Of a stretch of DNA of 64,000 bases, positions 31,142 to 51,997 are shown piece by piece. The number at the start of each line of letters is the position of its first letter. The first letter of the stretch is position 1. Location of the stretch: the NCBI RefSeq assembly GCF_021952865.1, contig NZ_CP040792.1, positions 2,728,001 to 2,792,000 of the forward strand, read 5' to 3'. Source of the DNA: Clavibacter californiensis (lineage in GTDB: Bacteria > Actinomycetota > Actinomycetes > Actinomycetales > Microbacteriaceae). The position numbers were made by a program, and so were the translations under genes. The notes beneath the pieces were generated by a model that had not been told where the DNA came from, did not search any database, and saw only the letters and a list, made by a program, of their open reading frames with translations.

Positions 31142-31654
31142 TCAGGCGCCCGCGGGGTCCGCCGGGTCCGCGGGGTCCGCGGGGTCCGCGAGCACCGTGC
31201 GCGGCTCGTGGTGGACGGGGAAGTTGACGGAGCTCGCGATGAAGCAGCGCTCCGAGGCGCCCTGGTGCAGCGACATCGCGAGCTCGACGTGCGCGGGATC
31301 CCGCACGGTGACGACGGGTCGCAGCGTGACCTCGACGAAGTGCCCGCCCCCGTCGTCCGTCTGCCGCATCGTGCCGGTGGGCTCGTCGCTGTAGCCCACG
31401 ACCACGACGCCCGCCATCGCGGCGGCGTGCAGGTAGCTGAGCAGGTGGCACTGCGCGAGCGCGGAGATGAGGGTCTCCTCCGGGTTCCAGCGATCGACGT
31501 CACCGCGGAACGGGCGGTCGGCGGATCCCAGGAGGTCGGGCTTCCCGGCCGCGCGGACGACGTGGTCGCGGCCGTAGGAGCGGTAGTCGGACGTGCCGGA
31601 TCCGCGGTCGCCCGTCCACTCGAGGGACAGGGCGTACCGGTGCTCGATCTGCAT
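31142..31654 (-). CDS. OsmC/Ohr-family protein
   Basis: 170 residues. The family's two redox Cys are seen in ALAQCHLLSYLH (about residue 69) and ASERCFIASSVNFPV (about 136), so peroxidase activity against organic hydroperoxides is plausible. The C-terminus ends in four Ala-Asp-Pro repeats encoded by 9-base units (31148-31190), an unusual extension. TAGCGT lies exactly six bases before the ATG, so the transcript is probably leaderless. Divergent from gabT, with which it shares a short intergenic region. Confidence 0.85.
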   Translation of the reverse strand: MQIEHRYALSLEWTGDRGSGTSDYRSYGRDHVVRAAGKPDLLGSADRPFRGDVDRWNPEETLISALAQCHLLSYLHAAAMAGVVVVGYSDEPTGTMRQTDDGGGHFVEVTLRPVVTVRDPAHVELAMSLHQGASERCFIASSVNFPVHHEPRTVLADPADPADPADPAGA

Positions 31655-31716
31655 GGGATCACGCTAGCGAACGGCGCCGCGGCCCTTCCGGATCCCGCTG
31701 CCCGCGCGGGTAAACT
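31655..31716. promoter_or_regulatory. Divergent promoters of the OsmC gene and gabT
   Basis: On the minus strand TAGCGT (31666-31661) ends six bases before the ATG at 31654. On the plus strand TAAACT (31711-31716) ends nine bases before the ATG at 31726. Neither spacer contains a convincing ribosome site. Confidence 0.55.
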
Positions 31717-31725
31717 CGCCGGATC

Positions 31726-33141: not shown

Positions 33142-34151
33142 TGGCGGCGGCCGTCGAGACGATCCCCGTCCAGGGCGCCGTCGAGCTCGCGGTGCTCGAG
33201 CGGAGCGGCTTCGTGGAGTCGCGCCACATCGGCGCGGCCGTCGTGCTGTCGCCCGAGGGCGAGGTGCTGCGAGAGGTCGGGGACGCGACGACGCCCGTGT
33301 TCCCGCGCTCCAGCATGAAGCCGTTCCAGGCCCTCGCGGTGCTGGCGAGCGGCGCGGAGCTCACCGAGGAGGAGCACGTGCTCGCCACGGCGAGCCACGC
33401 GGCGACCGCGCGACACGTGGAGGTGGTGCGGGGGATCCTCGCGAAGGCCGGGCTCGACGAGTCCGCGCTGCGCTGCCCCGCCGACTGGCCGCTCGACCGG
33501 GCCGCGCGCGACGATCTCGTGCGCGCAGGGATCCCCGCCTCCCCCGTGTACATGAACTGCTCCGGCAAGCACGCCGCGATGCTGCTCGCCTGCGTGACGA
33601 ACGGCTGGTCGACCGACGACTACCTGCACCCGGACCACCCCCTGCAGGTGCGGATCCGCGACGTGGTCGAGCGCTTCACGGGAGAGCGGATCGCCACGAC
33701 GGGCATCGACGGGTGCGGTGCGCCCGTGCACGCGATGTCGCTGACGGCGCTCGCGCGCGGGATCCACCGCATCGCGACCTCCGCGCCCGGCTCGCCTTTC
33801 GCGCTGTACCGGCACGCGGCAGCCCTCACCGCTGCCGTGCGCGCCCACGGCTGGGCGATCGACGGGCCCGGCCGCGCGAACACCGTCGTGATCGAGCGGC
33901 TGGGCCTCTTCGCCAAGGGCGGGGCCGAGGGGATCATGATCATGACAGCCCCCGACGGCACGACGGTGGCCTCGAAGACGCTCGACGGGAGCCTCCGGGC
34001 GTCCACCATCGTGGCGCTCGAGCTGCTCGCCCAGGCGGGCGCGATCACGCGGGACGACGTGGAGCGCGTGCGCCCCGAGCTCGACCTCCAGGTGCTCGGC
34101 GGCGGCGTGCCGGTGGGCGGGATCCGGGTGTCGCCGACGCTCATCGGCTGA
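33141..34151 (+). CDS. Asparaginase (L-asparaginase II type)
   Basis: 336 residues, no signal peptide. The sequence follows the thermolabile L-asparaginase II family: RSGFVESRH near the start, FPRSSMKPFQALA, ASHAATARHV, and YMNCSGKHAAML with conserved Ser/Lys residues, then DGCGAPVHAM. It would hydrolyse asparagine to aspartate and ammonia in the cytoplasm. The ATG overlaps the gabT stop. With gabT it forms a small amino-acid nitrogen operon (inference). Its last 11 bases overlap the end of the convergent FtsK/SpoIIIE gene. Confidence 0.88.
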   Translation: MAAAVETIPVQGAVELAVLERSGFVESRHIGAAVVLSPEGEVLREVGDATTPVFPRSSMKPFQALAVLASGAELTEEEHVLATASHAATARHVEVVRGILAKAGLDESALRCPADWPLDRAARDDLVRAGIPASPVYMNCSGKHAAMLLACVTNGWSTDDYLHPDHPLQVRIRDVVERFTGERIATTGIDGCGAPVHAMSLTALARGIHRIATSAPGSPFALYRHAAALTAAVRAHGWAIDGPGRANTVVIERLGLFAKGGAEGIMIMTAPDGTTVASKTLDGSLRASTIVALELLAQAGAITRDDVERVRPELDLQVLGGGVPVGGIRVSPTLIG

Positions 34152-37100
34152 TCCCGGCAGGCTGCGCGCGACGCGGCGGGTCGGCGGGGAGCGCCGTGGG
34201 TGCCGCCGGCACCGTCGGTGCCGCGGGTGCCTCCCCGTAGACCGGCCCATCGGGCGGCCCCGCCGTCGCCGGCGGCCACGAGCAGCGGCGCACGTCGCCG
34301 TCGGGCGTGACGAGCCAGGCGCGCCCGGGGATCGGCGCGAGGGGCGGCGGCACCGCGCGGACGCGGAGCAGCGTGCGCGCGTCCCGCGGGGTGCAGCCCT
34401 CCAGCACGACGTCGCCGGCACGACGGAGGTCCGCGAGGAGCGGGCCGCGCATCAGCCAGGCGTCGGGATCCCCGACCACGACCCGGGGACGCGCTGCGCG
34501 GCCGCCAGCGTCGTGCACGCCGTGGCCGACGGCGGCTCGCGTCGAGATCCCGATCCCGTCCGCGGCCGGACCGGGGAACGGCTGATCCGCGCACCAGCCC
34601 GGCGGGACCCGCGCGGCCTCGACCGCGTCGACGCCCCGCTGGCGGAGTCGCGCGACCGCGGCGGCGGACGACGGCGTCACGAGCGCATGCACGGCGTCGC
34701 CCGAGAGGAACACGCGGGGCGCGGGGTCCGCTGGCTCCCGCGCACCGGACCCCTCCGCATGCTGGACGGACGCGCTCTCGACCTCGGGCGGAATGGCCAC
34801 CTGGATCCGCTCGCCGCGCCACTCCCCCGCTCCGGGCTTCGGGCGGGCATCGAAGAGGCGGCTCTCGCCGCCCGCCAGGACGTGCTCCTGCCGGGTCGGG
34901 AGCGGGAGGATCACGGGCGGTCCCGAGGCGGCCGTCACACCCTGGAGCGACCCGCCCGCCCGACGGCAGGCGACGGCGAGCGCCACCCCGGCGTGGGGCC
35001 CCTCGCGGACGATGGCGGTCAGCCCCTCGAGCAGGGCGGCCTGGTGCTCGGGTCCCAGGCGGGAGACGGCGACGTCGAGGTCGTCGGCCAGCACGACGAG
35101 CGGATCGCGCGGCCCGTGCGGGTCGCGGATGCGGGCGACGACGCCGGCGACCGCATCCCAGCAGCCCTCCGCGTCCGCGGGCACGTGGATCACCTCGGCG
35201 CCGGCCACGGCGGCGGACGCGGCGATGGTGCGCAGGCACGTGCTGCGGCCGGATCCCGGGCCGCCGACGACGAGCAGGTGGCCGTCCGTCGCCGGGCACC
35301 ACACGGCCGTCGCGCGCCGCTGCTCCGCGGGCAGGTCGACGAGGGCGAAGGGCATGGGGGACGCGCCGGATGCGAGGGCCGCGGATCCGCGCCTGGGGAG
35401 GGGCGGCACCGCGTCGAGGTCGGCGAACGGGATGGACGCGGGCAGCGGATCCAGCCACGGGCGCCGGACGGGGACGGGGGTCGCGCGGGCGGCGGCGACG
35501 CGGGCGAGGTCGCCAGCCGTCGTGACGGCCACCTGGAACGGGCGCGCCGGCGCGCCATGCGCCCCGACGAGGCATCGACCGGAGGGCGCGTCGGCGAGGC
35601 GGGCCGCGTCGACGGTGCCGAGGAGCGCCCGGCTGTCCGCCTCGTTGTTGACGCGGAGCGAGAGGCGGAGGTCGCAGTTGGCGAGCACCGCGTCGCGCAC
35701 GACGCCGGCGGGACGCTGGGTGCAGAGCACGAGGTGCATGCCGAGCGAGCGGCCCCGGGCGGCGATGTCGGCGACGACCTCGTGCAGGCCGTCCTGGTCG
35801 GCGAGGAGGGCGGCCAGCTCGTCGACGACGATGACGAGGCGCGGCAGCACGCCCGCCGCGGCGGGGTCGTCGACGTCGCGTGCGCCGGCGTCGCGGAGGA
35901 CGCGCTCGCGATGCCGGATCTCCGCGCGCAGGCTCTCGAGAGCGCGGCGCGCGCCCTGGCCGTCGAGGTCGGTGACCAGGCCGACGGCGTGCGGCAGGAC
36001 GAGCAGCGGGTCGAACGCCGCGCCGCCCTTGAAGTCGACGAGGAGAACGGTGACCTCCTCGGGCGGATGCGCCGCCGCGAGCGCCGCCATCCAGGTGACG
36101 AGGAGCTCGCTCTTGCCGCTCCCCGTGGTGCCGGCGACGACCGCGTGCGGGCCGTCCGCGACGAGGTCCACCGACACGGGACCGTCGTGCCCGACGCCGA
36201 TGACCGCCGCGAGCGTGCGCGGACGGCGGGGGCGCGTCAGGCGGTCCCGCTCGGTGCCGGATCCGTCGCCCGCCGCGAGCCCGGGAGCCGACGGGGCCGG
36301 GTCGCCCGCGGCCGGCTCGTCGACGGCCGGCGGCTCCGCGAAGGGCGGCTCGGCGGCCAGCAGGTCGGCAGCCAGCAGGTCGGCGAACGGCACGCGCGGC
36401 GGGAGGGGCGCCCGCGCCGCCGCGAGCCCGCGCCGCCGCGCGAGGTCGGCCAGCTCGTCCGCGAGGCGCTCCACCTCCGTGAGGGACACGAGGTCGGGAC
36501 GCACCAGGCCGGTGCGGGTGAGTCGCGGCACCGGGATGCCGTCGTCGTCGGGCGGGAGGACGTGCGCGGCGGGATCCGCGGAGGCGCCGGGGCCGAGGGC
36601 GGCCGGGGCGGCAGGCGCCGGGTCGGCCGCGAGGATCCGCGCCGTGCCGGGGCTCCGGACGTCGAGCACCGTGCGGCACGCGGCGGGGAGCGACTCGACC
36701 CGCGGCGCCGCGGCGAGCACGACCTCCCGCCCGCCGAGCGCGAGCCGGATCGCCCACGCGCCCGGCTCCCTTGGCGCGATGCGCTCCGCGGCCGGTCGGT
36801 CGGCGCCGGCCCGCTCCTCGCGGAGTCCGTCGGCCGCGTGCGGCAGCCGCTCGAGCCAGTCCCACTCGGGCCCGGCCGGGCGGGACGCGATGCGCAGGTC
36901 GTCCGGCGGGAGGGCGTGCACGAGCTGGACGACGACGCCCCGGAGCACGGGCGCGACCAGGGCGGGGGCGCCCCGCAGCCCGAGGCCGCCGGTGGCGGAG
37001 ACGAGGACGGGCGCGTCGGGGACCCAGCGGACGAGATCCGCCCACCGTGCCGGATCGTGGAGGGAGGCGCCGGACGCCGATCGCGCACCGGCGGAGACGC

Positions 37101-37629
37101 GACGGGTGCGCCGCCGCAGGGACCGCAGGAGCGGACGACGCAGGAGCATGCCGCGCCCGTCCCGCGCGTCGGCATCCGGCACCCGCGCGTCCGGATCGCC
37201 GCGCCAGACCATGCCGCTCGGCACCTCGCCCGTGCCGAGCGCCACCGGGAGCGGGCCGTCGCCGTCCGGATCCGCCCGCCAGAGGAGCGCGGGGTTGGCG
37301 CTCCCGTCGAGGATCTCGCGCGCGGACGGCGCCCGGGAATGCAGGGCGACGCGGGCGGCGGCGACGCGCGCCCGTACCTCGGCGTGCAGGCGCGCGACCG
37401 CGGCGCGGGACTCGCGTTCGACCCGGCGGGCGGAGCGCCGGCCGGAGATGCGCTGATCCGCGACGCCCGCGATCGCGACCACGGGCCCGAGCGCCGCGAA
37501 CAGCAGCGCGTACGGCGAGCGCGTGACGGCCCAGACGCCGACGCTGACGACGAGGGGCGCCGCGACGCCGAGCACGGGGAACGGGGGCGGCGGCGCGGGA
37601 GCGGGCGACGGGGGCGGGGAGATGTCCAC
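34141..37629 (-). CDS. FtsK/SpoIIIE ATPase, EssC/EccC-like
   Basis: 1162 residues. Two hydrophobic helices lie near the N-terminus (about 18-58), then a degenerate region, a first FtsK/SpoIIIE domain with intact P-loop GTTGSGKS (about 500) and Walker B LVIVVDELA (about 600), and a second domain with GGPGSGRS (about 791) and a weaker Walker B (LVVLADDLDV). A third partial domain seems to follow. This tandem, membrane-anchored arrangement resembles type VII secretion ATPases (EssC/EccC) rather than FtsK, which has four helices and a gamma domain. No N-terminal FHA domains. It is the last gene of the six-gene cluster; the GTG start has no clear ribosome site. Confidence 0.85.
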   Translation of the reverse strand: MDISPPPSPAPAPPPPFPVLGVAAPLVVSVGVWAVTRSPYALLFAALGPVVAIAGVADQRISGRRSARRVERESRAAVARLHAEVRARVAAARVALHSRAPSAREILDGSANPALLWRADPDGDGPLPVALGTGEVPSGMVWRGDPDARVPDADARDGRGMLLRRPLLRSLRRRTRRVSAGARSASGASLHDPARWADLVRWVPDAPVLVSATGGLGLRGAPALVAPVLRGVVVQLVHALPPDDLRIASRPAGPEWDWLERLPHAADGLREERAGADRPAAERIAPREPGAWAIRLALGGREVVLAAAPRVESLPAACRTVLDVRSPGTARILAADPAPAAPAALGPGASADPAAHVLPPDDDGIPVPRLTRTGLVRPDLVSLTEVERLADELADLARRRGLAAARAPLPPRVPFADLLAADLLAAEPPFAEPPAVDEPAAGDPAPSAPGLAAGDGSGTERDRLTRPRRPRTLAAVIGVGHDGPVSVDLVADGPHAVVAGTTGSGKSELLVTWMAALAAAHPPEEVTVLLVDFKGGAAFDPLLVLPHAVGLVTDLDGQGARRALESLRAEIRHRERVLRDAGARDVDDPAAAGVLPRLVIVVDELAALLADQDGLHEVVADIAARGRSLGMHLVLCTQRPAGVVRDAVLANCDLRLSLRVNNEADSRALLGTVDAARLADAPSGRCLVGAHGAPARPFQVAVTTAGDLARVAAARATPVPVRRPWLDPLPASIPFADLDAVPPLPRRGSAALASGASPMPFALVDLPAEQRRATAVWCPATDGHLLVVGGPGSGRSTCLRTIAASAAVAGAEVIHVPADAEGCWDAVAGVVARIRDPHGPRDPLVVLADDLDVAVSRLGPEHQAALLEGLTAIVREGPHAGVALAVACRRAGGSLQGVTAASGPPVILPLPTRQEHVLAGGESRLFDARPKPGAGEWRGERIQVAIPPEVESASVQHAEGSGAREPADPAPRVFLSGDAVHALVTPSSAAAVARLRQRGVDAVEAARVPPGWCADQPFPGPAADGIGISTRAAVGHGVHDAGGRAARPRVVVGDPDAWLMRGPLLADLRRAGDVVLEGCTPRDARTLLRVRAVPPPLAPIPGRAWLVTPDGDVRRCSWPPATAGPPDGPVYGEAPAAPTVPAAPTALPADPPRRAQPAGISR

Positions 37630-37719
37630 CGGGCGAGGACACCACGGTCGTCGTGCCCCGGCGGCGCGGTGCCCGCACCTCGTGGACGCCGCGCGCGACG
37701 GGATCCTGGGGAGGAGGCG

Positions 37720-40251
37720 TCAGGGGCGCGGGCGGCGCCGCCGGGCACGCGCTCCCGCGAACCGCGCGCGGCCGTCGCCGTCGCCGCCCGCGCCCCGCCC
37801 GCGCCGCAGCGACGCCAGCGACACCATCGCGCGGAGCCGCTGCCGCCGGGTCCGCCCCGCGTCCATGCGCGCCGCGAGCTCGTCGACGCGGCGCCAGGAG
37901 GCGTCGGCGAGCGGATCCGGCACATCGCCCGGCGCGAACGCCGACTCGTCGGCCACGTCGGCGAGCCCGCGCGCGCCGCCCACGCCCACGAGCCGCGCCA
38001 CCTCGCGCCGCGTGGCCTGCACGGGCGGCACGAGGCCGCGGTCGAGCGCGCCGTCGTGGAACTCGTCCCACGCGCCGCCGACCCGGTCGCGGGCCACCGC
38101 GGCCCGGCGCCTCCGCCGTCGGCGCGCGACCTTCGCGCCCACGACGGCGAGGGACGGCGACGCCGCGAGCCCCAGCCCGAGCAGCGACCAGCCGGCCACG
38201 CTCACGGCGGCGAGCACGGCCTGGAGCGCGGGATCCGTCTCCGGCCGGTCGTCGCGGCTCGCGTCCGGCGGCGTGCGGTCCTCGGGCTCGGCCTGCTCCT
38301 CGACGGGCGGCGGCAGCACGGTCTGCGGGCGGGCGACCTCGGTGGGCTCGTCGGGCAACGCGTCGGGCACGTCGCGGACCGGCGGGTTCGGATCGACGGC
38401 CACCCAGCCGGAGGACGCGGTGTCGACCTCGATCCAGGCGGTGACGTCGGATCCCTGGATCCGCACGGGCCCGCCGAGCGCGTCCCGCACGGCGGCCTCG
38501 CCGGGCGCGAAGCCCATCACGACGCGGACGGGGAAGCCGAGGTCGTCGGCCATGAGTGCGGCCGCGACCGCGTACTGCTCCGCGTCGCCCAGCATGGGGC
38601 GCGTCGTGAGGAGGTCGGCGATCCGCTCGGCCGAGTGGCCCGACCGGCTGAAGGGCGCGTCGCCGACGCCGTGGCTGACGTAGCCGTCGGCGCGGAGTGC
38701 CGAGATCGCGGCGACGAGCTGCGCGCCGGGCGACGCCGAGGTGCCGACGCCCGCGTCCGCGCCGCCCGCGGTCGCGCCGTCGGGGGCGGCGGTGGACGCC
38801 TCCACGCGCGCGGCGATCTCGTCGGGCACTCCCGTGGGGCGCGGGGCCACGGCGTCGCCCGGGCGCTCGTCGGCGAGCGCCTCCAGCGGCGGCGTCGACG
38901 CGACCACGGCCTCGATCTCGTACGCGTCGCCGGCGGTCAGCCCGCCGATCACGGCGCCGGTGGCGGTCGCGTCGTCGTAGTAGAAGGAGTCGGCGAGGCG
39001 TCCGCCGTCGTCGCCCGCGAAGGCGATGCGCTCGAGGCGGCCCGCGCCCGGCAGCCACACGCCGCGGTAGGCGTCGACGACGACGTCGAGGGTGACGTCG
39101 TCGCCCGCGACGCCCGTCTGGTCGAGCCGGTACGGCACGCGCGCGAAGGTGCCGGAGGCCTGCCCCGTGCGCGACGCGTCGACGCTGCCGCGCGCGCCGC
39201 CCGTGCCGTAGACGACGCCGTCGTAGGTGTCGAGGGCGGCGAGTCGCACCCGGCCGCCGACGGGCAGGCCCGCGACCGTGAGCAGCGTCTCGTCGGCCGT
39301 CGGCGTCTTCCAGTAGGTGCGGAAGGACGAGAGCGGGCTGACCTGCTCGCGCGGATCGAACGGCTGCTCGATCGTGGAGCGGAGGCCGGTCCGGGACGCG
39401 TCGGGCGGGGCCGCGCCCGTGGCGGCGACGCCCGCGGCCAGGGCGGCCGCGAGCACGACGACCGCGGAGACCCCGGCGCGGGCGCCCGAGCGGCGTCGGT
39501 CCGACGCGGACTCCACGGGGATCCCCGCCTGCCGGCCGAGGCGCCGGACCGCGCGGTGGCGTCGGCGCCAGCGGCAGCGCGCGATCCACAGCAGGGCCGC
39601 CGCGAGCCAGGCCAGCGCGACCGGGACGAGGAGGCCAGCGGCATCGGGCGCGTCCGGGCCCTGGCTGCGGTCGGGGCCGAGGGCGGCGGCGACGACGAGG
39701 ATCACGAGGGAGGGGATCACCGCGAGCTCGGGCCGCCGGGAGCGCAGGGCCACGGAGACGCCGATCACGGACCCCAGCAGCACGAGCGCGAACGCGGGCA
39801 CGAGGAGCGCCTGGTAGTCGCCGACCGGGAGCGCGATGGTCAGGAGCCGCACGATGCCGAGGGACGCGCCCTCGACGAGCTCGCCGAGGCCAGCGAGCGT
39901 GGGCAGCCAGCCGTCGACCGCGCCGGAGGGCACCGCGAGCGGCACGCCGAGCGCGAGGAACGCCACGAGGATCGCGGACGCCACCACCGCGCTCCCCCAG
40001 CGGAACCGGGCGCCCGCGACCGCGAGGAGCGTCCCGACGACCAGCGTGATCCCCGCCATCCGCACGAACGACGCGTCGCGGTAGACGGGCCAGAGGGCGG
40101 CCGCGGCGAGGCCGGTGAGCAGTGCGATCGCGACGGCCGGGACGAGCGTGCGGCCGGGGTCGCGGGATCCGGCGGGGACGCGGGGGCGGGCGGCGCGACC
40201 GGGAGCCGCGCGGCGGGCGACGCGGGCGCCGGCGGGACCCCGCGCGCTCAC
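37720..40251 (-). CDS. Polytopic transglutaminase-fold protein with replaced catalytic residues
   Basis: 843 residues. About seven N-terminal membrane helices (30-240), an extracytoplasmic region with the transglutaminase-like core (about 470-630), a Pro/Glu-rich linker, another helix near 680, and a basic Arg-rich cytoplasmic tail. This is the TgpA-like layout commonly seen next to MoxR and DUF58 genes. In the core, however, the usual Cys of the GxCEQ motif is Ala557 (GDAEQYAVAAALM) and the usual catalytic His before AW is Thr604 (SDVTAWIEV); only the Asp in DPNPP remains. The protein is therefore probably non-catalytic. GTG overlaps the DUF58 stop (GTGA). Confidence 0.88.
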   Translation of the reverse strand: MSARGPAGARVARRAAPGRAARPRVPAGSRDPGRTLVPAVAIALLTGLAAAALWPVYRDASFVRMAGITLVVGTLLAVAGARFRWGSAVVASAILVAFLALGVPLAVPSGAVDGWLPTLAGLGELVEGASLGIVRLLTIALPVGDYQALLVPAFALVLLGSVIGVSVALRSRRPELAVIPSLVILVVAAALGPDRSQGPDAPDAAGLLVPVALAWLAAALLWIARCRWRRRHRAVRRLGRQAGIPVESASDRRRSGARAGVSAVVVLAAALAAGVAATGAAPPDASRTGLRSTIEQPFDPREQVSPLSSFRTYWKTPTADETLLTVAGLPVGGRVRLAALDTYDGVVYGTGGARGSVDASRTGQASGTFARVPYRLDQTGVAGDDVTLDVVVDAYRGVWLPGAGRLERIAFAGDDGGRLADSFYYDDATATGAVIGGLTAGDAYEIEAVVASTPPLEALADERPGDAVAPRPTGVPDEIAARVEASTAAPDGATAGGADAGVGTSASPGAQLVAAISALRADGYVSHGVGDAPFSRSGHSAERIADLLTTRPMLGDAEQYAVAAALMADDLGFPVRVVMGFAPGEAAVRDALGGPVRIQGSDVTAWIEVDTASSGWVAVDPNPPVRDVPDALPDEPTEVARPQTVLPPPVEEQAEPEDRTPPDASRDDRPETDPALQAVLAAVSVAGWSLLGLGLAASPSLAVVGAKVARRRRRRRAAVARDRVGGAWDEFHDGALDRGLVPPVQATRREVARLVGVGGARGLADVADESAFAPGDVPDPLADASWRRVDELAARMDAGRTRRQRLRAMVSLASLRRGRGAGGDGDGRARFAGARARRRRPRP

Positions 40252-41708
40252 GTCGCGCTCCGCTGCAGGGCGCCGCGCAGGTCCTCGAGGTAGCCGATCG
40301 TGAGGACCGACAGGTCGCCGAGGCGGCGGAGCCCGGGCTCGACCTCGGGGTCGCAGACGACCGCGACCACCTGCACGCCGGGCGGGAAGCCGACGGCGGC
40401 CGCGCGGATCGCGGCGGGTGCCGCTCCCGTGCCGCAGACGAGGAAGACGACGGACACGCCCGCGACCTCGTCGGCGGCCGCGCGGGCGAGCTCGACGAGC
40501 GACGCCGCGCGGTCGGAGGCGCCGATCTCGGCGAGGTCGTCGAGGAGGCGGTCGCGCGTGACGGTGGCGAGCCGGCGGAGGCGGGCGGAGCGGGATCCGG
40601 GCGGACCCTGGCGCGCGACGGTGCGGGCGAGCCCGGGCAGCGTGGGCGCGGTCGGGGGGCGGCGCGCGCGTCGCGCCGCCCTGTCGGCGCTCGCGACGAC
40701 CTGCAGGGTCCGCGCGTCGACGATGGCGCGCGCGCCCAGGGATCCGACGACGCTCACGGCCAGCTCGAACTCGGCGTCGGCGCTGGATCCGGCGAGCGCG
40801 CCCGCGGCATGCCCCGCCGCGACCGTGGTGCCGCCCGCCGGGATCGCCGTCGCGTCCTCCACCGGGCTGGCAGCGCCGTCCCCGTAGTCGCCCGCGTGCA
40901 GCGACAGCGCCACCATGATGTGGCTCCGCCGGGTCTCCTCGAAGCGCCGCACCATGTGCACGCCGGTCTTCGCGGTCGAGCGCCAGTGGATGTGCCGCAC
41001 CGGGTCGCCCGGCACGTACTCGCGGAGCGACTGGAACGACACGTCGCTGTCGGTGAGGTCGCGCGTGGCGCGGCCCTCGAGGTCGCGGACGAAGCCCGTG
41101 CTCGTGCTGGGCATCGCGAGCGTGCGCGGGTGCACGAGCAGGCGGGTCGCGGCGGCCTCGGCGGACTCGCGGCGCACCAGGCCGATCGGGTCGCCGCGGA
41201 CGATGCGCGCGGGGCCGAGCGCGATCACGCCGCGGCGCGAGGTCGGCACGACGAACACGTCCTCGTGGGAGTGGCCGTGCGCGAGGGAGGGGACGTGGAC
41301 CTCGGCGAGACCGGATCCGACCGGCACCTCCACCGTGAGGCCGACCGCGCGGCGGCGCAGCGGGTTCCGCACGGCGACGGTCGCGGGCGCGCGCTCCCCC
41401 GCGACCACGCGGTCGCGCGGCAGGCGCAGCGACACCTCGACCCCGGAGGATCCGACGAGGTGCAGCAGCGCGATGACCCAGAGGGCGGCGGCGGTCCAGG
41501 CGACCGCGACCAGCTCGCGCCAGCCGAGCGCGTACCCGACGGCGCCCGTGACGACCGCGGCCAGCGCGACGACGCGGCCGAGCGGCGTGACGACCGCGAC
41601 GAGGCGCGCGAGGGCGTGGCGCCGCGGGGCGGCGGCGGGATCGAGCGGGGACGCGACGGCGGCGGGATCCGGTGCGGCGGCCGCGCCGCGCATCCCGACC
41701 GCGCTCAT
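40248..41708 (-). CDS. DUF58 domain protein
   Basis: 486 residues. Two membrane helices near residues 38-80, then a beta-rich region (GERAPATVAVRNPLRRR, SRRGVIALGPARI) and the DUF58 signature YVPGDPVRHIHWRSTAKTG (about 235), followed by a vWA-like C-terminal domain interrupted by Ala/Gly-rich inserts. DUF58 proteins almost always accompany MoxR ATPases and are thought to present targets to them or to bind metals. ATG at 41708 overlaps the MoxR TGA (ATGA), and its own stop overlaps the transglutaminase-fold gene, so three genes are translated in tandem. Confidence 0.9.
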   Translation of the reverse strand: MSAVGMRGAAAAPDPAAVASPLDPAAAPRRHALARLVAVVTPLGRVVALAAVVTGAVGYALGWRELVAVAWTAAALWVIALLHLVGSSGVEVSLRLPRDRVVAGERAPATVAVRNPLRRRAVGLTVEVPVGSGLAEVHVPSLAHGHSHEDVFVVPTSRRGVIALGPARIVRGDPIGLVRRESAEAAATRLLVHPRTLAMPSTSTGFVRDLEGRATRDLTDSDVSFQSLREYVPGDPVRHIHWRSTAKTGVHMVRRFEETRRSHIMVALSLHAGDYGDGAASPVEDATAIPAGGTTVAAGHAAGALAGSSADAEFELAVSVVGSLGARAIVDARTLQVVASADRAARRARRPPTAPTLPGLARTVARQGPPGSRSARLRRLATVTRDRLLDDLAEIGASDRAASLVELARAAADEVAGVSVVFLVCGTGAAPAAIRAAAVGFPPGVQVVAVVCDPEVEPGLRRLGDLSVLTIGYLEDLRGALQRSAT

Positions 41709-42826: not shown

Positions 42827-45800
42827 CCGCGGTGGGCGTACGTGTACAGGGTGCCCGAGTTCGCGGTGACGCGCACCTCGAGGATCCGCTCGCCGCCGGC
42901 CGGGACCGCGCAGGATCCGGCCGCGCCCGACGACGCGTCGGTCCACGCGCCCTGGCCGCCGCAGCGCCACTCGCTGCGCGCGTACCCGCCGGCGTCCGAG
43001 ACGCGCGCGCCGCGTCCGGCGGCCGGCGGCATCGAGGTCCACGAGAACGTCGTGACTCCCGCATCGTCGGTGGCGGACCGCACGTCGCCCGCGCGCGCGT
43101 CCACGGCGGTGCCGGCGGGGACGGGATCCGACCAGCCGCTCGACCGCGGTCGCCCGTCGCCCGAGTCCTCGACGACGCGCACCTGGATCGAGGCGCCGAC
43201 GCCCGTGCGCGGCAGCGTGAGCGCCTGGCCGACGCCGATCGGCACGCCGTCGCCCTGCCCGTCGACCCGGTACAGCAGCTGGGCGGACGCGGACGCGCTG
43301 CCGGGCCGGTAGCGGGCGTCGGCGAGGACCGCGCGGAAGACGCCGTCGGCGGACCGGTCCGGGCTCGGCAGGTCGACGCGGACGACGGGCGTGGACGGCG
43401 CCGTGCGCGGGGTGAGCTGCCCGGCCTCGACGACCGTGCAGCCCTGGCTGTTGGCGGCGAGCACGGCGAACGCGACGGGCTGGTCGGTGGCGAGGCCCGT
43501 GAAGACGTGGCTGGTCGCGCCGCCCACCTCGACCGCGGGACCGTGCTGGGCCGACCACGGCGACACGCCCTCGGTGGGCACCGTGCAGCCGGGCGCGGAT
43601 CCCGGGGCGTACGCGGCGACGAGGTAGCGGATCCCGTCGACTCCCTGGCCCTGGAACGCCGGCCACGAGACGGTCACGCGCGTCTCGTCGGTCGCGTCGG
43701 CGACCGCGGTGGGCGCGCCGGTGGCGGTCGGGGCGCCGCGCGGCGTGCCCGTCGCGGTGGCGGTGAGCCACGCGGTCCCGTCCTGCACCTGCGCGCTGTT
43801 GCGCGCGGCCACCGAGACGGCGACGGGCACCTCGGCGACGAGCGACGGATCCCGCACCTCGACGCTCGTGGCGTCGGCCGGGACCTGCCGGGTGAGGCCG
43901 CCCACCCCCACGACGTACTGCGTGACGGGGCTCGACGACGACGGCACGGCCGACGGCTGCCACGAGAGGCGCAGCCCGTCGACGAGCGGCTCGACGGCGA
44001 GGCCCGCGGGCGCGGGCGGGAGCACGTCCGACCAGAGGCCCGCGATCGAGACGGGGTCGGAGGTGCCCACGCCGTTCACGGCGGAGACCTCCACCTGCAC
44101 CGAGTTGGCGGGCCCGTTGCCGGGGGTCGGCACGGTGCAGGTCGTCGACGGGCAGGTGACGGTCGCGGTCGCCGTGCCGCCGCGGAGCACGCGCAGCTGG
44201 TAGCCCGTGATGGCGGATCCGTTGAATGCGCCCGGCTCGAACGCGACGGTGAGCGAGCGGTCCGCGAAGCCGGAGGCCCGCAGGGCCGTGACGGGTCCCG
44301 GGCGGTCCTGCACGTGGATCACGACGGTGCCGAACGCTGCCCGGCCGGCGTCGCCCGTGGCGTCGCGCACCTCGTACTGCACGCGCACGTCGCCGGGCTC
44401 GGCGTCGGCTGATGCGCTCACGGAGAGCGTCGCGCGGTCAGCCGACGGCGTCACGGTCACGCCCGCGGGGAGGCTCGCGCCGTCGGCGCCGCGGATGGAC
44501 GCGACCGTGAGCGGCGTGCCCGGGAAGGGGTTGCCTGCCTGGTCGTTGGCGAGCACGTCGACGGTGGTGGAGGATCCGCGGGTCACGGTGCCCTCGTCCG
44601 TCGCGGGCTGCGCGAGCGGGCGCGTCGACGGCACGACGCGGAGGTCGATGCGGCCCGCGCGCCCGGTCTGCGTGGCGTCGCGGACGCTCACCGGGAACGA
44701 CGCGGCCTGCCCCGTCGCGACGCCCTCGTCGGCGGAGATGCGGAGCGTGCCGCCGTCGACGGACGCGCGGAACCCGGCGGCGACGGATCCCTCCAGCGCG
44801 AAGGCGAGCTGCCCGCGGTCGTCCTGGTACGGATAGGTGGTGAGGCGGCCGAGGTCGACGTCCTTGGACTGCCCGGGCTCGAGGTCGATGACCGCGCCCG
44901 TGAACACGGGCGGCTGGTTCTCGGTGGGCGTCACGGTGATCGGCAGCACGAGCGCGGCCGTGCGCCCGCCCGCGCCCGACCCGTCGGTCACGGTGAAGGA
45001 GATCGCCGCCGGCCCGAAGTACCCGGGCTCGCTCTGGTACGCGATGGTGTCCTCGTCCACGAGCTCGACGGGCCCGGCGGCGTGCGTCGCCGACAGCGAG
45101 TTCGGATCCGCGATGCGCACGGCCCGGCCGCCCGCCGCGACCACCTGCTCGTCGAGGTCGACCACGAGCCGCTCGCCGCTCGGCACGGTCGGCCGCGGCT
45201 CGCCCACGCGCAGCTGCGGCAGGGTGTCCTCGAAGCCGGGCACCCAGACGAAGGCCGTCGTGGAGATGGTCGGGTCGTCGGGCTGCGTCACCGTGAACGG
45301 GACGATGCGGCGCTCGTCGCCGACCTCGACGCGGATCCGGCCGTCGTCCGTCACCCGCGCGACGTCCTCGTAGCCGGCGCCGACGGCGAGCACGAGCGAC
45401 GACGCGTCGCCCTCCGCGGAGAACACGTTGCGCATGACGTCGACGTCGACGGACGAGCGGTCGAGCACGTCGGAGAGCTGGAGCACCGTGTCGCGCGCGA
45501 CCGGGCGGGTGGGCGGCGCGGCGGGATCCACGATCACGGTGAGGAACGCCTCGTCGCTGCCGCCGCGCGCGTTGCGCACGCCGTACACGAAGCCGTAGCG
45601 GCCGGCGGCCTCGGGCGCGACGACGCGCACGGTGTCGCCGTCGAGCCCCGCGACGACGCCCTCCGCCTGCGGCTGCACCGAGACGAGCGAGAGCGCGCCG
45701 CCGTCCGGATCCGTGTCGTTGGCCAGCACCTGCACGCGGAGCACGCGGCCCGGCCGCACGGTCACGGTGTCGGCGGTGGCGACGGGGTTCCTCGCGCCCT

Positions 45801-48800
45801 CGACGCGCGGGCTGATGCCCACGCGGATCGTGCCGGTCGCCCGCGCGCCCAGCCCGTCGACCACGGCGTACGCGAACGCGTCGGTGCCGGTGGAGTAGTC
45901 GCCCGCCTGGTAGTCGATCCAGTCCGGCCCCACCTCGACGACCTGGCCCTTCTCGGGCCCGGTGTCCTGCCCGAGGAGCCGCACCGAGTCGCCGTCGGGG
46001 TCGATGCCGGTGAGCGGCACGGGGATCCGCACGGTCTCCCCCGCGAGCACGCGCGCCGTGAGCGGGCGCGGCACGGGCTCGGCGTTGGTCGCGACGTCGG
46101 CCTCGCGCACGGAGACGGTGAGCGTCGCGGTCGCCCACTGCCCGTCGGGCGCGACGGCGCGGTAGACGGCGGTGTAGTCGCCCGTGCGGCCGGGCGCGAG
46201 GTAGCGGAGGCGGTCCTCGCTCGCGAAGAGGAGGCCGGCGCCGTCGGGCAGCGGATCCACGAGCACGGGGTCGAGGCGGAGCCGGTCGCCGTCGGGCTGC
46301 TGGTCGTTGGCGAGCACGGGGATGTCCACCGCGTCGCCCACGCGCACAGCCACGCGGTCGTCGGTCGCGACGGGCGGCTGGCGCACGGCCGGCTCGGGCA
46401 CCTCGATCACGGTGATCACGCCGGTCGCCTCGGCCACGCCGTTGCTCACGCGGTACTCCACGTCCACCGGACCGTCGAGCGGCCGGGTGAGGCTGATCCG
46501 CACGAGCCGCTGCCCGACGACCTCGGCGCGCACGCCCACGGCGTCGCCGGGCGAGACGGCGTCGGTGATCACGAGCACCCCGCCCGCGGGGTCGAAGTCG
46601 GTCTGGAGCACGTCCACGTCCTGCGCCTGGAGCGCGCGCACGAACACGGTGTGCGGCACGGTCACGGGCCGGCCGTCCGACGCGGGCGCGCCGCGCACCT
46701 CGACGCGCACGACGCCCGTGGCCGTCGTCCGCCCGTCGGTCACCGTGTACTCGAGCAGGTGCGTGCCCGCCTGGCCGCCCTGGAGGCGGAAGGTGCCGGC
46801 CTCGAGGTCGGGCGTGATCTGCACGCCGGCCCGCGCGGGCACGGCCGCCAGCCGGATCGCGCCGCTCCCGCCGCGCGCGTGCGTCAGCGGCTCGACCGTG
46901 ATCTCGCGCCCGATCGCCGCCTGCACGACGAAGGCCTCGGCCACGAGCGGCACGTCCCCGGCGCGGCGCACGGTGACGACCAGCTCGCCCGCCCCCTCCT
47001 CGCGCCCGTCGGACACCTGCAGCGCGACGGTCCGCGTGTCGCCGCCCGCCCCGGCGTCCGTGTAGACGACGCGCCCCTCGGGCTTCCAGCTGACGGCGTC
47101 GGGCGCGGGGACGCTCGCGCGCGTGAGGTACATCGGATCCCCGTCGGGGTCGTACCAGCCGCCCAGCACGTCGGTCTGCAGCCGGTCGCCCTCCGCGACC
47201 GTGCCCGTCGCGGGCCGCGACTGCTCGGGCGGCGAGTTCTCGTCGGCCCCCCGCACGGCGACGCGCACGTCGGCCGTCGCGGTGCCGCCGCGCCCGTCGC
47301 TCACGACGTAGGAGAACCGCACGGTGCCGGACGCGCCCGCGGCGAGCGCGAGCTGGAGGCCCTGGCCCTCGTCCACGATGACGACCGCGCCGACCGCCGC
47401 GTCCACGGGCGTGACGGAGTCGATCACGAGCACGTCGCCGTTCGGGTCGTGGTCGTTGAGGAGAACGGGCAGCGCGGTGGTGCGGCCGGGGCGCGCGCCG
47501 AGGTCGTCGTCGACCGCGACGGGCGGCTGCTGCACGCGGTCGGTCTCGGGCGGGGTGTCCGCGGTGTTCTGCTCGACGACCGTGTCGGAGCGGTCGCGGT
47601 CGATGAGGTCGGCCCAGTTGTCGATGAGTCCCGCGTCGCCCTGCACGGCCCACGCGGCGCCGCCGCGGGTGTCGTTGAGCACCACGCGCGATCCGTCGAC
47701 CACGAAGCGCAGGGCGGCCTGCTGCGGCATGGATCCGATGCCGCTCGTGGCGCCCGCCGCCGTGCGCCGGGCGTCCTGGTCGCCGTCGCCCCCACCCGCG
47801 AGGGTCGCGGGCGCGAGGCAGCGCTGCCACGCGGATCCATCGGTCCAGCCCGCGAACTCGCAGCCGGCCACGCGGACGGGACGCGCGGGGTCGCCGCGCA
47901 CGTCGCCTGTCACGACGACCGGATCCCCGCCCGCGACGGGCACCTCGACGAGCCCGCCCGAGTGCGCGACCAGGACGCCGCTGCCGTCCGACGACGCGCG
48001 CTGGAGGGCGACGCGCGCGTCCGCGGCCACGGATCCGGCGAGGTCGACCGTCCGCCCGTCGACGAGGAGGGCGCGCGCGTCGGCGTCGTACAGCGCCCAG
48101 TGGCCGTCGATGGACGTGAGCGCGAGGCGCTGGCCGGCGGGCCGGCCGGCATCCCCGGCCTGGACGGTCTCGCCCGCGAGGGCCGCCGCGGGATCGGCGG
48201 GGGCGTCGGCCGCCGCGGCCACGGGCGCGCCGACGGGCCCGACGTCGACCGTCTCCCGCACGGTGTCCTCGGTCGCGGCCTGGATGCGCGACAGCGTCCC
48301 CGTCGCGGCCGAGTACACGAGCAGCGTGCCGTCGTCACCCATGGACGCGACGGCGTCGGCCCCGAGGATGAGCGTGGGCGCGCTCGCGGCGTCGAACGCG
48401 GAGAGGCCGGCGACCGGCACGAGCCACAGCTGGCCCGTCGCCGGCACGAGGATCGCGGCGCGCGATCCCGCGAGCATGACCTCGGCGCCCGCGGGCAGCG
48501 GTGCGGTGTCGACCACCTCGCTCGTCGCGTCGTCGACCACGTCGAGCCGCGAGCTGCCGCGGTCGGCGAGCAGCACGGTGGATCCGGCCTGCAGCACGTC
48601 GATGTCCTCGCTGCGGGACTCGACGACGCTGTCGAGCTCGAGCACGGCCGTGTTGGCGCGGCCGATCGCCTGCTGCGCGGAGTTGACGACCCACACGGAT
48701 CCGTCGTCGAGGTCGACGCGCTGCGCCTGGTAGCCGTCCGAGACGAGCGCGAAGCCCGTGAGGAGGGCGAGCACGACGGCCCCGCCGGTGACGGTCGCAG

Positions 48801-48837
48801 CGGCCTGGCGGTGGCGGCGGATCCACTCGCGGATCAT
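42823..48837 (-). CDS. Giant membrane-anchored surface protein with Ig/cadherin-like and Fn3 repeats
   Basis: 2004 residues. A basic N-terminus (IREWIRRHR) and one helix (about 12-33) anchor it with the rest outside. Residues 40-400 are beta-rich and may form a propeller-like domain. From about 435 to 1500 there are many cadherin/VCBS-like modules marked by VLxND(x)DPDGD-type motifs (near 450, 830, 1025 and 1430). Fn3-like modules lie at about 1516, 1609 and 1706, and several more beta domains reach the C-terminus; no LPxTG or second helix is seen. It probably forms a long fibre or adhesin. ATG at 48837 overlaps the kinase TGA (ATGA). The longest frame begins inside the kinase gene and is a shadow there. 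Confidence 0.88.
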   Translation of the reverse strand: MIREWIRRHRQAAATVTGGAVVLALLTGFALVSDGYQAQRVDLDDGSVWVVNSAQQAIGRANTAVLELDSVVESRSEDIDVLQAGSTVLLADRGSSRLDVVDDATSEVVDTAPLPAGAEVMLAGSRAAILVPATGQLWLVPVAGLSAFDAASAPTLILGADAVASMGDDGTLLVYSAATGTLSRIQAATEDTVRETVDVGPVGAPVAAAADAPADPAAALAGETVQAGDAGRPAGQRLALTSIDGHWALYDADARALLVDGRTVDLAGSVAADARVALQRASSDGSGVLVAHSGGLVEVPVAGGDPVVVTGDVRGDPARPVRVAGCEFAGWTDGSAWQRCLAPATLAGGGDGDQDARRTAAGATSGIGSMPQQAALRFVVDGSRVVLNDTRGGAAWAVQGDAGLIDNWADLIDRDRSDTVVEQNTADTPPETDRVQQPPVAVDDDLGARPGRTTALPVLLNDHDPNGDVLVIDSVTPVDAAVGAVVIVDEGQGLQLALAAGASGTVRFSYVVSDGRGGTATADVRVAVRGADENSPPEQSRPATGTVAEGDRLQTDVLGGWYDPDGDPMYLTRASVPAPDAVSWKPEGRVVYTDAGAGGDTRTVALQVSDGREEGAGELVVTVRRAGDVPLVAEAFVVQAAIGREITVEPLTHARGGSGAIRLAAVPARAGVQITPDLEAGTFRLQGGQAGTHLLEYTVTDGRTTATGVVRVEVRGAPASDGRPVTVPHTVFVRALQAQDVDVLQTDFDPAGGVLVITDAVSPGDAVGVRAEVVGQRLVRISLTRPLDGPVDVEYRVSNGVAEATGVITVIEVPEPAVRQPPVATDDRVAVRVGDAVDIPVLANDQQPDGDRLRLDPVLVDPLPDGAGLLFASEDRLRYLAPGRTGDYTAVYRAVAPDGQWATATLTVSVREADVATNAEPVPRPLTARVLAGETVRIPVPLTGIDPDGDSVRLLGQDTGPEKGQVVEVGPDWIDYQAGDYSTGTDAFAYAVVDGLGARATGTIRVGISPRVEGARNPVATADTVTVRPGRVLRVQVLANDTDPDGGALSLVSVQPQAEGVVAGLDGDTVRVVAPEAAGRYGFVYGVRNARGGSDEAFLTVIVDPAAPPTRPVARDTVLQLSDVLDRSSVDVDVMRNVFSAEGDASSLVLAVGAGYEDVARVTDDGRIRVEVGDERRIVPFTVTQPDDPTISTTAFVWVPGFEDTLPQLRVGEPRPTVPSGERLVVDLDEQVVAAGGRAVRIADPNSLSATHAAGPVELVDEDTIAYQSEPGYFGPAAISFTVTDGSGAGGRTAALVLPITVTPTENQPPVFTGAVIDLEPGQSKDVDLGRLTTYPYQDDRGQLAFALEGSVAAGFRASVDGGTLRISADEGVATGQAASFPVSVRDATQTGRAGRIDLRVVPSTRPLAQPATDEGTVTRGSSTTVDVLANDQAGNPFPGTPLTVASIRGADGASLPAGVTVTPSADRATLSVSASADAEPGDVRVQYEVRDATGDAGRAAFGTVVIHVQDRPGPVTALRASGFADRSLTVAFEPGAFNGSAITGYQLRVLRGGTATATVTCPSTTCTVPTPGNGPANSVQVEVSAVNGVGTSDPVSIAGLWSDVLPPAPAGLAVEPLVDGLRLSWQPSAVPSSSSPVTQYVVGVGGLTRQVPADATSVEVRDPSLVAEVPVAVSVAARNSAQVQDGTAWLTATATGTPRGAPTATGAPTAVADATDETRVTVSWPAFQGQGVDGIRYLVAAYAPGSAPGCTVPTEGVSPWSAQHGPAVEVGGATSHVFTGLATDQPVAFAVLAANSQGCTVVEAGQLTPRTAPSTPVVRVDLPSPDRSADGVFRAVLADARYRPGSASASAQLLYRVDGQGDGVPIGVGQALTLPRTGVGASIQVRVVEDSGDGRPRSSGWSDPVPAGTAVDARAGDVRSATDDAGVTTFSWTSMPPAAGRGARVSDAGGYARSEWRCGGQGAWTDASSGAAGSCAVPAGGERILEVRVTANSGTLYTYAHRG

Positions 48838-50396
48838 CGCGGGAGCTCCGCGCACTTCTCCGTCGACGTCTTCCCGGCGATGCCGTCGCGCGTGACGGTG
48901 ACGCGGATGCAGGCGCGGTCGCCCGTGCCGGCGCCCGCGGTGCCGCCCGAGCCGGACGTCACCCGGAAGGTCGTGTCGCGCTGCGTGCTCGGCAGCCCGC
49001 CGTCGCGCACCACCTGGTACGCGTCGCCGGCGCCGAGGCCGGGGTCGCTCCAGGAGAACAGCACGCCGTCGGCTGCGGCTGAGGCCTGGATCTCGCCCAC
49101 CACCGGGATGTCGCGCGTCGCGTTCCCGCCGCCCGACCCGCCGAGGAGCACGCCCACGGCCACGCTCGCGACGATCGCGCCGGCCGCGGCCGCCGCGAAC
49201 GCCACGCGGTGCCGCGCGAGGAACGCGCGCCGGCCGGGGAGGGTGGTCCGGACCGGGGCGGAGAGTCCGACGGGCCCGGAACCGGACCGGCCGAGGGAGG
49301 TGGACGCGGATCCCGCCCGGACCTGCTCGGACGCGGTCGCCGGGACGCCGGGACGCGCCGCGCCGCCCGTCTGCCGCGCCACCGCGGGCGCCGGCTTCCG
49401 CCGCGCGCGCCGGATGCCCGCCGCGCCGCCCGGCCCGGTCGTCCCCGGATCCACCTGCGCGATGCCGCGCACGCGCGTCGGGTCGTCCTCCTCGTCGACG
49501 CCCGCCGCGACGGCCGACGCCCACTCCTCGCTCGCGACCTCGAGCGGCGTCTGCGCCAACCGGAGCTCCGCCTCCACCGCCTGCAGCTCGCGCACGAAGG
49601 CGAGCGCCGACTCCGGCCGGGCGTCCGGCTGCCGCGACATCGCGCGGCGGAGCACCAGCTCGAGCCGCTCGGGCACGTCGGCGCGTCCCGTCGGCAGGGG
49701 CCGCGCCCGCTGGATCCGCGCCACGAGGTCCGCGGGCGCGTTCTGCCCGCCGGGCAGCTCGAAGGGGCTGCGCCCGGCGAGCAGCGAGTACACGGTCGCG
49801 GCGAGCGACCACACCTCGCTCCGCACGGTGCCGGGGCTCTCGTCGGCGAGCACCTCGGGCGCCGACCACGGGATCGAGAGGCCCACCGCGTCGGTCGCGG
49901 CGGCGTCCTCGAGCGTCGAGGCGATGCCGAAGTCGCTGAGCACGGGGTGGCCGAACGCGGTCGTCAGGATGTTGGCGGGCTTGATGTCGCGGTGCAGCAC
50001 GCCCGCGCGGTGGGCGGTCTCCACGGCGCTGGCGATGCGGATCCCCACGCGCAGCACCTCCGCGACGCCGAGCGGCTCGCGCCGGTACCGGTCGCTGAGG
50101 CTCGACGAGCACAGCTCCATGACGAGGTACGGGCGGCCGTCGGCGGCGACGGACGCCTGGTGCACGGTGAGCACCGACGGGTGCGCGCTCAGCTGCGCCA
50201 TGAGGTCGGCCTCGGCGCGGAACATGGCGCGGAGGCGCTCGGTCACGATCTCCGCGAGCATCACCTTCACGGCGACCTGGCGGCGCGGCATGTCCTGCTC
50301 GTAGAGGAACACGTCGGCGAAGCCGCCGGAACCGAGGACCGTCACGTAGGTGAACCCCGGCAGCACCGGCGGGGCGGACGGCAGGCGTCTGGCCAT
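48834..50396 (-). CDS. Membrane Ser/Thr protein kinase with Fn3-like extracytoplasmic tail
   Basis: 520 residues. Kinase domain 14-280 with Gly-loop GSGGFADV (22-29), Lys44, HRDIKPAN from 135 and DFG at 155-157; all key residues are present. A long polar linker (about 290-395) precedes one helix (about 397-420), and the outer 100 residues look like an Fn3 module (VLFSWSDPGLGAGDAYQVVRDG). The outer module resembles those of the giant protein encoded next, so the two may interact or share ligands (inference). ATG at 50396 is preceded by GAAGAGGGGG. It is the first gene of the six-gene cluster and presumably phosphorylates cluster components. Confidence 0.9.
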   Translation of the reverse strand: MARRLPSAPPVLPGFTYVTVLGSGGFADVFLYEQDMPRRQVAVKVMLAEIVTERLRAMFRAEADLMAQLSAHPSVLTVHQASVAADGRPYLVMELCSSSLSDRYRREPLGVAEVLRVGIRIASAVETAHRAGVLHRDIKPANILTTAFGHPVLSDFGIASTLEDAAATDAVGLSIPWSAPEVLADESPGTVRSEVWSLAATVYSLLAGRSPFELPGGQNAPADLVARIQRARPLPTGRADVPERLELVLRRAMSRQPDARPESALAFVRELQAVEAELRLAQTPLEVASEEWASAVAAGVDEEDDPTRVRGIAQVDPGTTGPGGAAGIRRARRKPAPAVARQTGGAARPGVPATASEQVRAGSASTSLGRSGSGPVGLSAPVRTTLPGRRAFLARHRVAFAAAAAGAIVASVAVGVLLGGSGGGNATRDIPVVGEIQASAAADGVLFSWSDPGLGAGDAYQVVRDGGLPSTQRDTTFRVTSGSGGTAGAGTGDRACIRVTVTRDGIAGKTSTEKCAELPR

Positions 50397-51908: not shown

Positions 51909-51997
51909 GGCGCCTCCTCGAGTCTGGGTGGATGGCCGGGGGATGCGCCGCGGGGCGCCCATGGCGCCGTCGCGGCGTCGGACTCCGAGCCGACTAC

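Follow-up and report, generated by a model that had tools for sequence, protein, structure and literature searches.

Six genes of a Clavibacter californiensis locus as the proposed core of one envelope machine: a PFNA-type operon ending in an EccC-family ATPase

Do a set of five envelope genes and the ATPase gene that follows them form one machine, or do two systems merely stand side by side? The question is raised by a locus on a 64,000-nucleotide stretch of the Clavibacter californiensis genome (contig NZ_CP040792.1, positions 2,728,001 to 2,792,000), the whole of which we call the window. Six genes on its minus strand encode a Ser/Thr protein kinase, a giant surface protein, a MoxR-type AAA+ ATPase, a DUF58 protein, a transglutaminase-fold (TG) protein and an ATPase of the EccC/EssC family, the first five being of the kinds known from the PFNA operon of Bifidobacterium. 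On balance we favour the view that the six genes are the core of a single phosphorylation-gated, envelope-spanning machine, a PFNA-type operon that ends in an EccC-family motor. Judged from its genes, this machine is akin to the type VII secretion loci that these bacteria also carry, but it has no linked WXG100 gene.

The locus and its linkage across the family

In the direction of transcription the locus begins with the kinase gene (48834–50396; 520 aa; Pfam Pkinase 128 bits), followed by the genes for the giant protein (42823–48837; 2004 aa; Pfam Big_9 in seven stretches, 230 bits), the MoxR-type protein (41705–42826; 373 aa; AAA_3 208 bits), the DUF58 protein (40248–41708; 486 aa; DUF58 36 bits) and the TgpA-like TG protein (37720–40251; 843 aa; TgpA_N 34 and Transglut_core 41 bits). 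The four junctions among these five genes are 4-base overlaps, three of them ATGA and one GTGA. The ATPase gene (34141–37629; 1162 aa, GTG start; FtsK_SpoIIIE 127 bits) starts 90 bp past the stop codon of the TG gene. Coordinates, junctions and Pfam assignments thus confirm the initial annotation, made from the sequence alone, which had described six same-strand genes with the first five joined by such overlaps. We found no promoter, terminator-like site or RNA element in 37500–37900; the RNA fold of the 90-bp gap (37630–37719) is unremarkable (z −0.42), and the window has no Rfam matches. Against one same-genus relative (L034), the ratio of nonsynonymous to synonymous substitution (dN/dS) is 0.20–0.32 in all six genes, which are therefore under constraint.

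We followed the linkage through 120 genomes of one family, the window's genome included, and take the family to be Microbacteriaceae, as named loci fall among sample members in a tree of the first ATPase domain (D1). Short ATPases like that of the window and long EssC proteins were sorted by hand on score and open-frame length, with at most six ATPase candidates scored per genome, and second pieces of split matches were excluded from the TG and ATPase lists; the ATPase, EssC and TG counts given here hold among the matches listed and are approximate. One place with a 1132-aa frame (G009) was put with EssC and one with a 398-aa frame (G078) was excluded, which leaves the genome counts unaffected.

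The short ATPase occurs in 78 of the 120 genomes. Of these, 46 have a same-strand TG gene at most 12 kb upstream of it, the two matches being 0.1–5.4 kb apart. From the 78 we selected 20 ATPase-bearing stretches of 20 kb each; giant, MoxR, DUF58, TG and ATPase genes stand in one order in 15; the kinase is in view in 14 of these, and the fifteenth (L040) ends before the kinase position. Taking as PFNA-type the top 59 TG places, which score at least 420 bits, we find the short ATPase in 47 of the 59 genomes with such a gene versus 31 of the 61 others (Fisher p 0.001, a value that ignores kinship).

Companion genes add to the picture. A zinc-ribbon/FHA gene lies between the TG and ATPase genes in 12 of the 15 linked stretches, all except two same-genus stretches and L043. 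Of the 14 stretches that include the kinase, 12 have a PP2C gene directly upstream of it; a further FHA match precedes this gene in 7 of the 12, and the other 5 stop at the PP2C gene or inside it. In the two same-genus stretches, neither PP2C nor FHA precedes the kinase. The fullest form seen, in Agromyces cerinus, is nine genes in a row: FHA, PP2C, kinase, giant, MoxR, DUF58, TG, zinc-ribbon/FHA and ATPase. In one linked stretch (L040, genome G064), genes that read as a sugar ABC transporter (binding protein, ATPase and permease; L040:5352–9031) separate the FHA gene from the ATPase of the locus, an apparent insertion.

The window's genome carries an overlapping FHA-PP2C gene pair at C1:1624–1626 kb, 1.1 Mb from the locus, and PP2C and one FHA have therefore been relocated rather than lost. 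The displaced PP2C is 58% identical to the PP2C of L037, which comes from a PP2C-FHA-ATPase row, and 56% identical to that of Agromyces; the displaced FHA protein is 35% identical to the Agromyces FHA protein over 359 residues. Outside the locus the genome holds one WXG100, four FHA and three PP2C places. None of the four FHA places is at the locus, and two zinc-ribbon/FHA queries found nothing in the genome beyond the FHA domain encoded by the displaced pair. The initial annotation's statement that no WXG100, FHA or PP2C gene is visible is thus right for the locus and wrong for the genome. Its suggestion of a reduced system stands for the zinc-ribbon/FHA gene, which has no match, and falls for PP2C and one FHA, while its phosphorylation theme is strengthened by the PP2C and FHA genes of the fuller loci.

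Many of these genomes encode, in addition, a long EssC (about 1500 aa; 62 genomes, 68 places), and from these 68 places we obtained 21 pairs of EssC and TG genes no more than 25 kb apart. A second locus type (L086–L093, L110, L111 and L120) has giant, MoxR, DUF58 and TG genes joined to a long EssC, several with FHA, PP2C and kinase genes as well. Eight of ten stretches with EssC and TG (L086–L095) are colinear, the other two (L094 and L095) having EssC on the opposite strand, and a kinase was called in five of the eight. The order in L089 is giant, MoxR, DUF58, TG, FHA, PP2C, FHA, kinase, one unassigned gene, EssC and a WXG100-like gene. In L089 and L086 the MoxR, DUF58 and giant (Big_9/fn3) assignments are borne out by Pfam, as are PP2C, kinase, zinc-ribbon and FHA in the Pseudarthrobacter locus L120, whose EssC itself bears an FHA domain at the N-terminus. 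WXG100 genes score above the cut-off in three EssC-type loci (L088, 76 bits; L091, 71 bits; L110, 58 bits) and WXG100-like genes below it in two (L089, 24 bits; L092, 26.5 bits); the three long EssC proteins that we scanned reach 538–550 bits to the EssC model, below its cut-off of 778. This EssC-linked locus may represent a form of type VII locus that has yet to be described in these bacteria.

The strongest argument for treating the six genes of the locus as one machine is this parallel union with EssC; together with the TG gene upstream in 46 of 78 genomes, the union upholds the initial annotation's placing of the ATPase with the other five. Long EssC is found in 10 of the 12 PFNA-type genomes without a short ATPase versus 22 of the 47 with one (Fisher p 0.03, again ignoring kinship). 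All told, 57 of the 59 PFNA-type genomes carry a short ATPase or a long EssC, which fits a need for some EccC/EssC motor, although the statistics are weak.

Spread beyond the family was followed in 80 named loci. A TG match stands with the ATPase in eight of them: Demequina (L110), Pseudoclavibacter (L111), two from Microbacterium (L112 and L114), Pseudarthrobacter (L120), Agromyces (L139) and two bins (L107 and L108). Cryobacterium L106 has a PP2C-FHA-ATPase row. In Bifidobacterium subtile (L150) and B. tsurumiense (L152), a solitary EccC-like ATPase (frames of 691 and 642 aa) lies near a small cysteine-rich frame that reads as WhiB-like, and PFNA genes were not found in the 10-kb flanks.

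The ATPase and its partner proteins

What kind of motor ends the operon? A profile search of solved structures puts Thermomonospora curvata EccC (4nh0) at the top with 321 bits, compared to 114 bits for FtsK, and YukB and EccC5 also score far above FtsK. A fold search with the predicted model (mean pLDDT 77.7, pTM 0.60) ranks EccC first (E 8e-32), then EssC, then FtsK (E 5e-16). In the D1 tree, in which several rows have long branches, a branch with support of 100/99 separates 25 short ATPases, that of the window among them, from 22 long EssC. These comparisons place the ATPase in the EccC family, in what appears to be its own clade relative to the long EssC of the same bacteria. We also considered a DNA translocase and rejected it on the profile and fold rankings, with EccC/EssC above FtsK in both.

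Two hydrophobic segments within residues 16–59 anchor the ATPase, and the model divides the remainder into an N-terminal domain, D1 (about 470–715), D2 (about 760–946) and a short C-terminal fold (about 980–1117). The D1 Walker A motif and DE box are invariant across the 20 rows of our alignment (A1, with L050 excluded). The D2 P-loop varies across the aligned rows, and D2 looks degenerate by eye; nor did we see, by eye, a P-loop in the short C-terminal domain. Going by these motifs, D1 is the only intact motor domain. The earlier description of a membrane-anchored tandem FtsK/SpoIIIE ATPase therefore keeps its anchor, and "tandem" needs qualifying.

The TG protein is polytopic, with several hydrophobic segments. 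The catalytic triad of transglutaminases is Cys-His-Asp. In the window's protein the sole Cys, residue 226, lies within a membrane segment, and at the place of the nucleophile, as judged from the transglutaminase motif, Cys is absent in all 39 aligned rows, that of the window's protein among them. The triad His is missing in the window's protein and in all 24 PFNA-type rows, and it is kept in 7 of the 15 EssC-linked rows (L087, L089–L093 and L120). Because there is no Cys in the core, the label "pseudo-transglutaminase" given initially was right, and the protein reads as a pseudoenzyme.

The giant protein has an N-terminal hydrophobic signal anchor, computed at residues 12–34 in the window's protein and visible by eye in the 14 aligned rows. 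Residues of about 45–405 form an all-beta domain (predicted model, mean pLDDT 73.6) whose best fold matches are beta-propellers, namely the YVTN propeller of an archaeal surface-layer protein (E 3e-12) and BamB (E 3.5e-10). Tandem Big_9 Ig domains lie C-terminal to the propeller, Pfam also calls cadherin-like domains, and no C-terminal hydrophobic segment was found. Of the original Ig/Fn3 label the Ig half is borne out; Pfam makes no fn3 call in this giant at E 0.01, though it does in a paralogue, and the C-terminal part is Fn3-like on a reading of the sequence alone.

The remaining products have the expected motifs in place for the kinase (VAVK, HRD and DFG, with a single hydrophobic segment at 396–423 and a C-terminal part beyond it) and both Walker A and Walker B in the MoxR protein; the DUF58 protein has two hydrophobic segments at its N-terminus. 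As for the surroundings, a citrate synthase gene, read from its translation, lies 5' of the operon (50553–51962), and at the other end a convergent asparaginase II gene (33141–34151) runs 11 bases into the 3' end of the ATPase gene. With OsmC-like and class III aminotransferase genes it occupies 31142–34151. Similar-looking OsmC/aminotransferase/asparaginase-type genes flank the PFNA genes in L102 and L103, and the wider neighbourhood may be conserved too. Another Ser/Thr protein kinase gene lies outside the operon (26841–28193, plus strand; Pkinase 157 bits).

Proposed working and rival readings

How might such a machine work? We infer complex formation, gating, a role for each part and a cargo along the following lines. 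The kinase would sense the envelope and phosphorylate its partners, PP2C (unlinked in the window's genome) would undo the phosphorylation, and FHA proteins would bind phospho-threonines, coupling the kinase to the motor and gating it. The giant would enter the membrane via its own signal anchor, with the propeller at the outer face and the Ig/Fn3 mast spanning the wall as a scaffold, conduit or sensor. MoxR, DUF58 and the dead TG-fold protein could act as a membrane platform that assembles or remodels the giant or a membrane part. The ATPase, anchored by its two helices and with D1 as motor, would drive an assembly step or some cargo, probably not the WXG100 protein encoded beside groEL, which is discussed below. 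A natural EccC motor without a linked WXG100 gene raises the question of which cargo other than WXG100 proteins motors of this kind carry.

Several observations weigh against this proposal. The ATPase does not adjoin a TG gene in 32 of the 78 genomes that have it: the TG gene is distant on the same contig in 7, on another contig in 16 (some of these assemblies being fragmented) and absent among the matches listed in 9. PFNA genes are missing in 5 of the 20 stretches (L037, L041, L048, L049 and L050), and 12 of the 59 PFNA-type genomes have no short ATPase. The presence/absence association is moderate. Outside the family, Atopobiaceae L161 has ATPase and kinase matches only, and Bifidobacterium L150 and L152 and the Bifidobacteriaceae bin L109 have ATPase matches only; PFNA and ATPase genes are therefore unlinked in those flanks. 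The ATPase also falls below the NCBIfam cut-offs (TIGR03928, 240 of 778 bits; TIGR03924, 214 of 509 bits). Finally, the genome's only WXG100 gene (70.8 bits; L001:1471–1782) is unlinked to the locus, lying about 0.3 Mb off between a histidine kinase gene and groEL, and WXG100 is kept in 7 of the 8 genomes, among the 120, whose best ATPase match is weaker than 1e-18 or absent. Three of these 8 are incomplete (66–83%); among the 5 that are at least 97% complete, 4 keep it. The co-occurrence in related genomes that the initial annotation had expected of a single system is thus common, but not universal.

The histidine kinase-WXG100-groEL trio is present in 14 of 14 relatives examined that have a single WXG100, PFNA genes and the ATPase (L195–L208), and in 4 of 4 examined that have only FtsK-level ATPase matches (G013, G066, G081 and G095). 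Because it is kept in relatives without an EccC-like match, this WXG100 protein is probably not a dedicated cargo of the ATPase; we considered it in that role and find it unlikely, the trio being equally present in relatives without such an ATPase. In every examined relative with a groEL match (L189–L192 among them), WXG100 lies between the histidine kinase gene and groEL, and this arrangement persists in genomes of 1.1–1.7 Mb and in one of 2.9 Mb, all of which match the ATPase at FtsK level at best.

Could the locus instead be two adjoining modules? The five PFNA genes would then be a surface sensor or adhesin, and the ATPase with its PP2C and FHA genes an independent EccC-like translocase that settled nearby ancestrally. 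Of the 5 stretches without PFNA genes, 4 retain PP2C, with or without FHA, next to the ATPase, as PP2C-FHA-ATPase (L037 and L048), FHA-PP2C-ATPase (L049) or PP2C-ATPase (L041), and these rows favour two modules, as do the 9 ATPase-bearing genomes without a TG match. So do five PFNA-type loci (L101–L105, with giant, MoxR and TG genes, and DUF58 called in 3 of 5) that have no short ATPase in the stretch, and the available text of two PFNA papers, which does not use the word FtsK (PMC8430577, PMC6803598). However, the paralogous locus type joins this gene set to a full EssC as well, one or more EccC/EssC-like ATPases are encoded in 57 of the 59 PFNA-type genomes, and PP2C and FHA genes go with both halves. 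We therefore consider two modules rather unlikely, though well worth weighing. In each of the five loci L101–L105, the TG gene is followed by an FHA-domain match.

A decaying type VII locus, which has lost WXG100 and full ATPase domains and retains little ATPase function, would account for the variable D2 P-loop, the C-terminal domain without a visible P-loop and the lack of a zinc-ribbon/FHA gene at the locus, and the ATPase is the fastest-changing of the six genes (dN/dS 0.32 versus 0.20–0.26). Yet these values are well under 1, the D1 Walker A and DE box do not vary in the 20 rows and the ATPase is kept in 78 of 120 genomes, so that decay seems quite unlikely. Very unlikely, in our judgment, is the weakest part of the initial annotation, in which the ATPase exports or assembles the giant fibre and MoxR, DUF58 and TG form a maturation platform. 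The genes are adjacent, but the giant has its own N-terminal anchor and should therefore use Sec, and it is kept in L101–L105 without the ATPase; its export by the ATPase is therefore unsupported. The known cargo of EccC consists of helical WXG100-type proteins, which also counts against the giant. That the sixth gene is an FtsK/SpoIIIE-type DNA translocase with no role in protein traffic agrees with its Pfam name, but it is barely credible given that EccC/EssC beats FtsK in both the profile and the fold search and that the other ATPase match in the genome is distant (40 bits, 1439-aa frame). The reading that we favour thus remains one kinase-gated machine built from all six genes.

Comparison with PFNA, type VII and moxR loci

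The PFNA operon of Bifidobacterium consists of pkb2, fn3, aaa-atp, duf58, tgm, an optional prpC, a hypothetical gene and fha, and it is thought to sense the host, as a host-communication cluster (PMC8430577, PMC6803598). As far as the available text of these papers goes, the first five genes of the window's locus agree with it in kind, order and direction, the likeness being one of gene content and arrangement, and the PFNA operon has PP2C and FHA companions as the window's relatives do. However, prpC follows tgm in Bifidobacterium, whereas in the window's relatives PP2C is upstream of the kinase. A mark of the PFNA giant is a pair of Fn3 domains with cytokine-receptor motifs; the window's giant, in which Pfam calls Big_9 and cadherin-like domains, differs in its 2004 aa and its propeller. 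The window's operon also ends in an EccC-family ATPase, while FtsK has no occurrences in that text.

The T7SSd of Actinomycetota, a five-part secretion system of TsdA, TsdC, TsdD, TsdH and TsdI (PMC11217815), has in common with the window a membrane kinase (TsdD), a giant Ig protein with an N-terminal signal and an EccC/EssC ATPase. TsdH is a protein with a single transmembrane helix and a short cytoplasmic portion. TsdC carries N-terminal FHA domains, whereas the window's ATPase has hydrophobic segments from residue 16 and no FHA in the Pfam scan; TsdI has a C-terminal transmembrane helix, and none was found in the window's giant; WXG100 is a core part of T7SSd, and no WXG100 gene is linked to the window's locus. 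Because of these three differences, as drawn from the available text of that paper, we considered and rejected filing the locus under T7SSd, although it may work like one. Conversely, MoxR, DUF58 and transglutaminase, all three present in the window, have no occurrences in that text. Of the general features of type VII secretion, the locus has the membrane ATPase of the EccC/EssC family and lacks a WXG100 gene alongside. Like EccC/EssC proteins (4nh0, YukB and EccC5), its ATPase has two membrane helices and a D1 with Walker A and B; it differs in its short C-terminal domain without a visible P-loop, in its scores below the NCBIfam cut-offs and in grouping separately from long EssC.

The mycobacterial moxR operon also has MoxR beside DUF58, but a vWA gene follows DUF58 and no EccC gene is named in it in the available text of a review that had already noted its likeness to PFNA (PMC12067865). 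Among the titles and abstracts listed in our searches of open-licence literature, none treats MoxR or DUF58 and type VII secretion as one locus. Within the literature searched, the joining of five PFNA genes to a type-VII-like motor thus appears to be a new union of known parts. A bolder reading, plausible and held tentatively, is that PFNA operons were originally parts of an actinobacterial type VII-like machine rather than host-sensing adhesin clusters; MoxR, DUF58 and the dead TG-fold protein would be an assembly platform for EccC/EssC, and the short-ATPase branch a kinase-gated version with a cargo other than WXG100. In the text available to us, the PFNA literature, concerned with host communication, and the T7SSd literature, concerned with secretion, describe pieces without naming each other's genes. 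If both are branches of one machine, clusters of MoxR, DUF58 and TG genes and their giant Ig/Fn3 proteins become testable as secretion or assembly functions.

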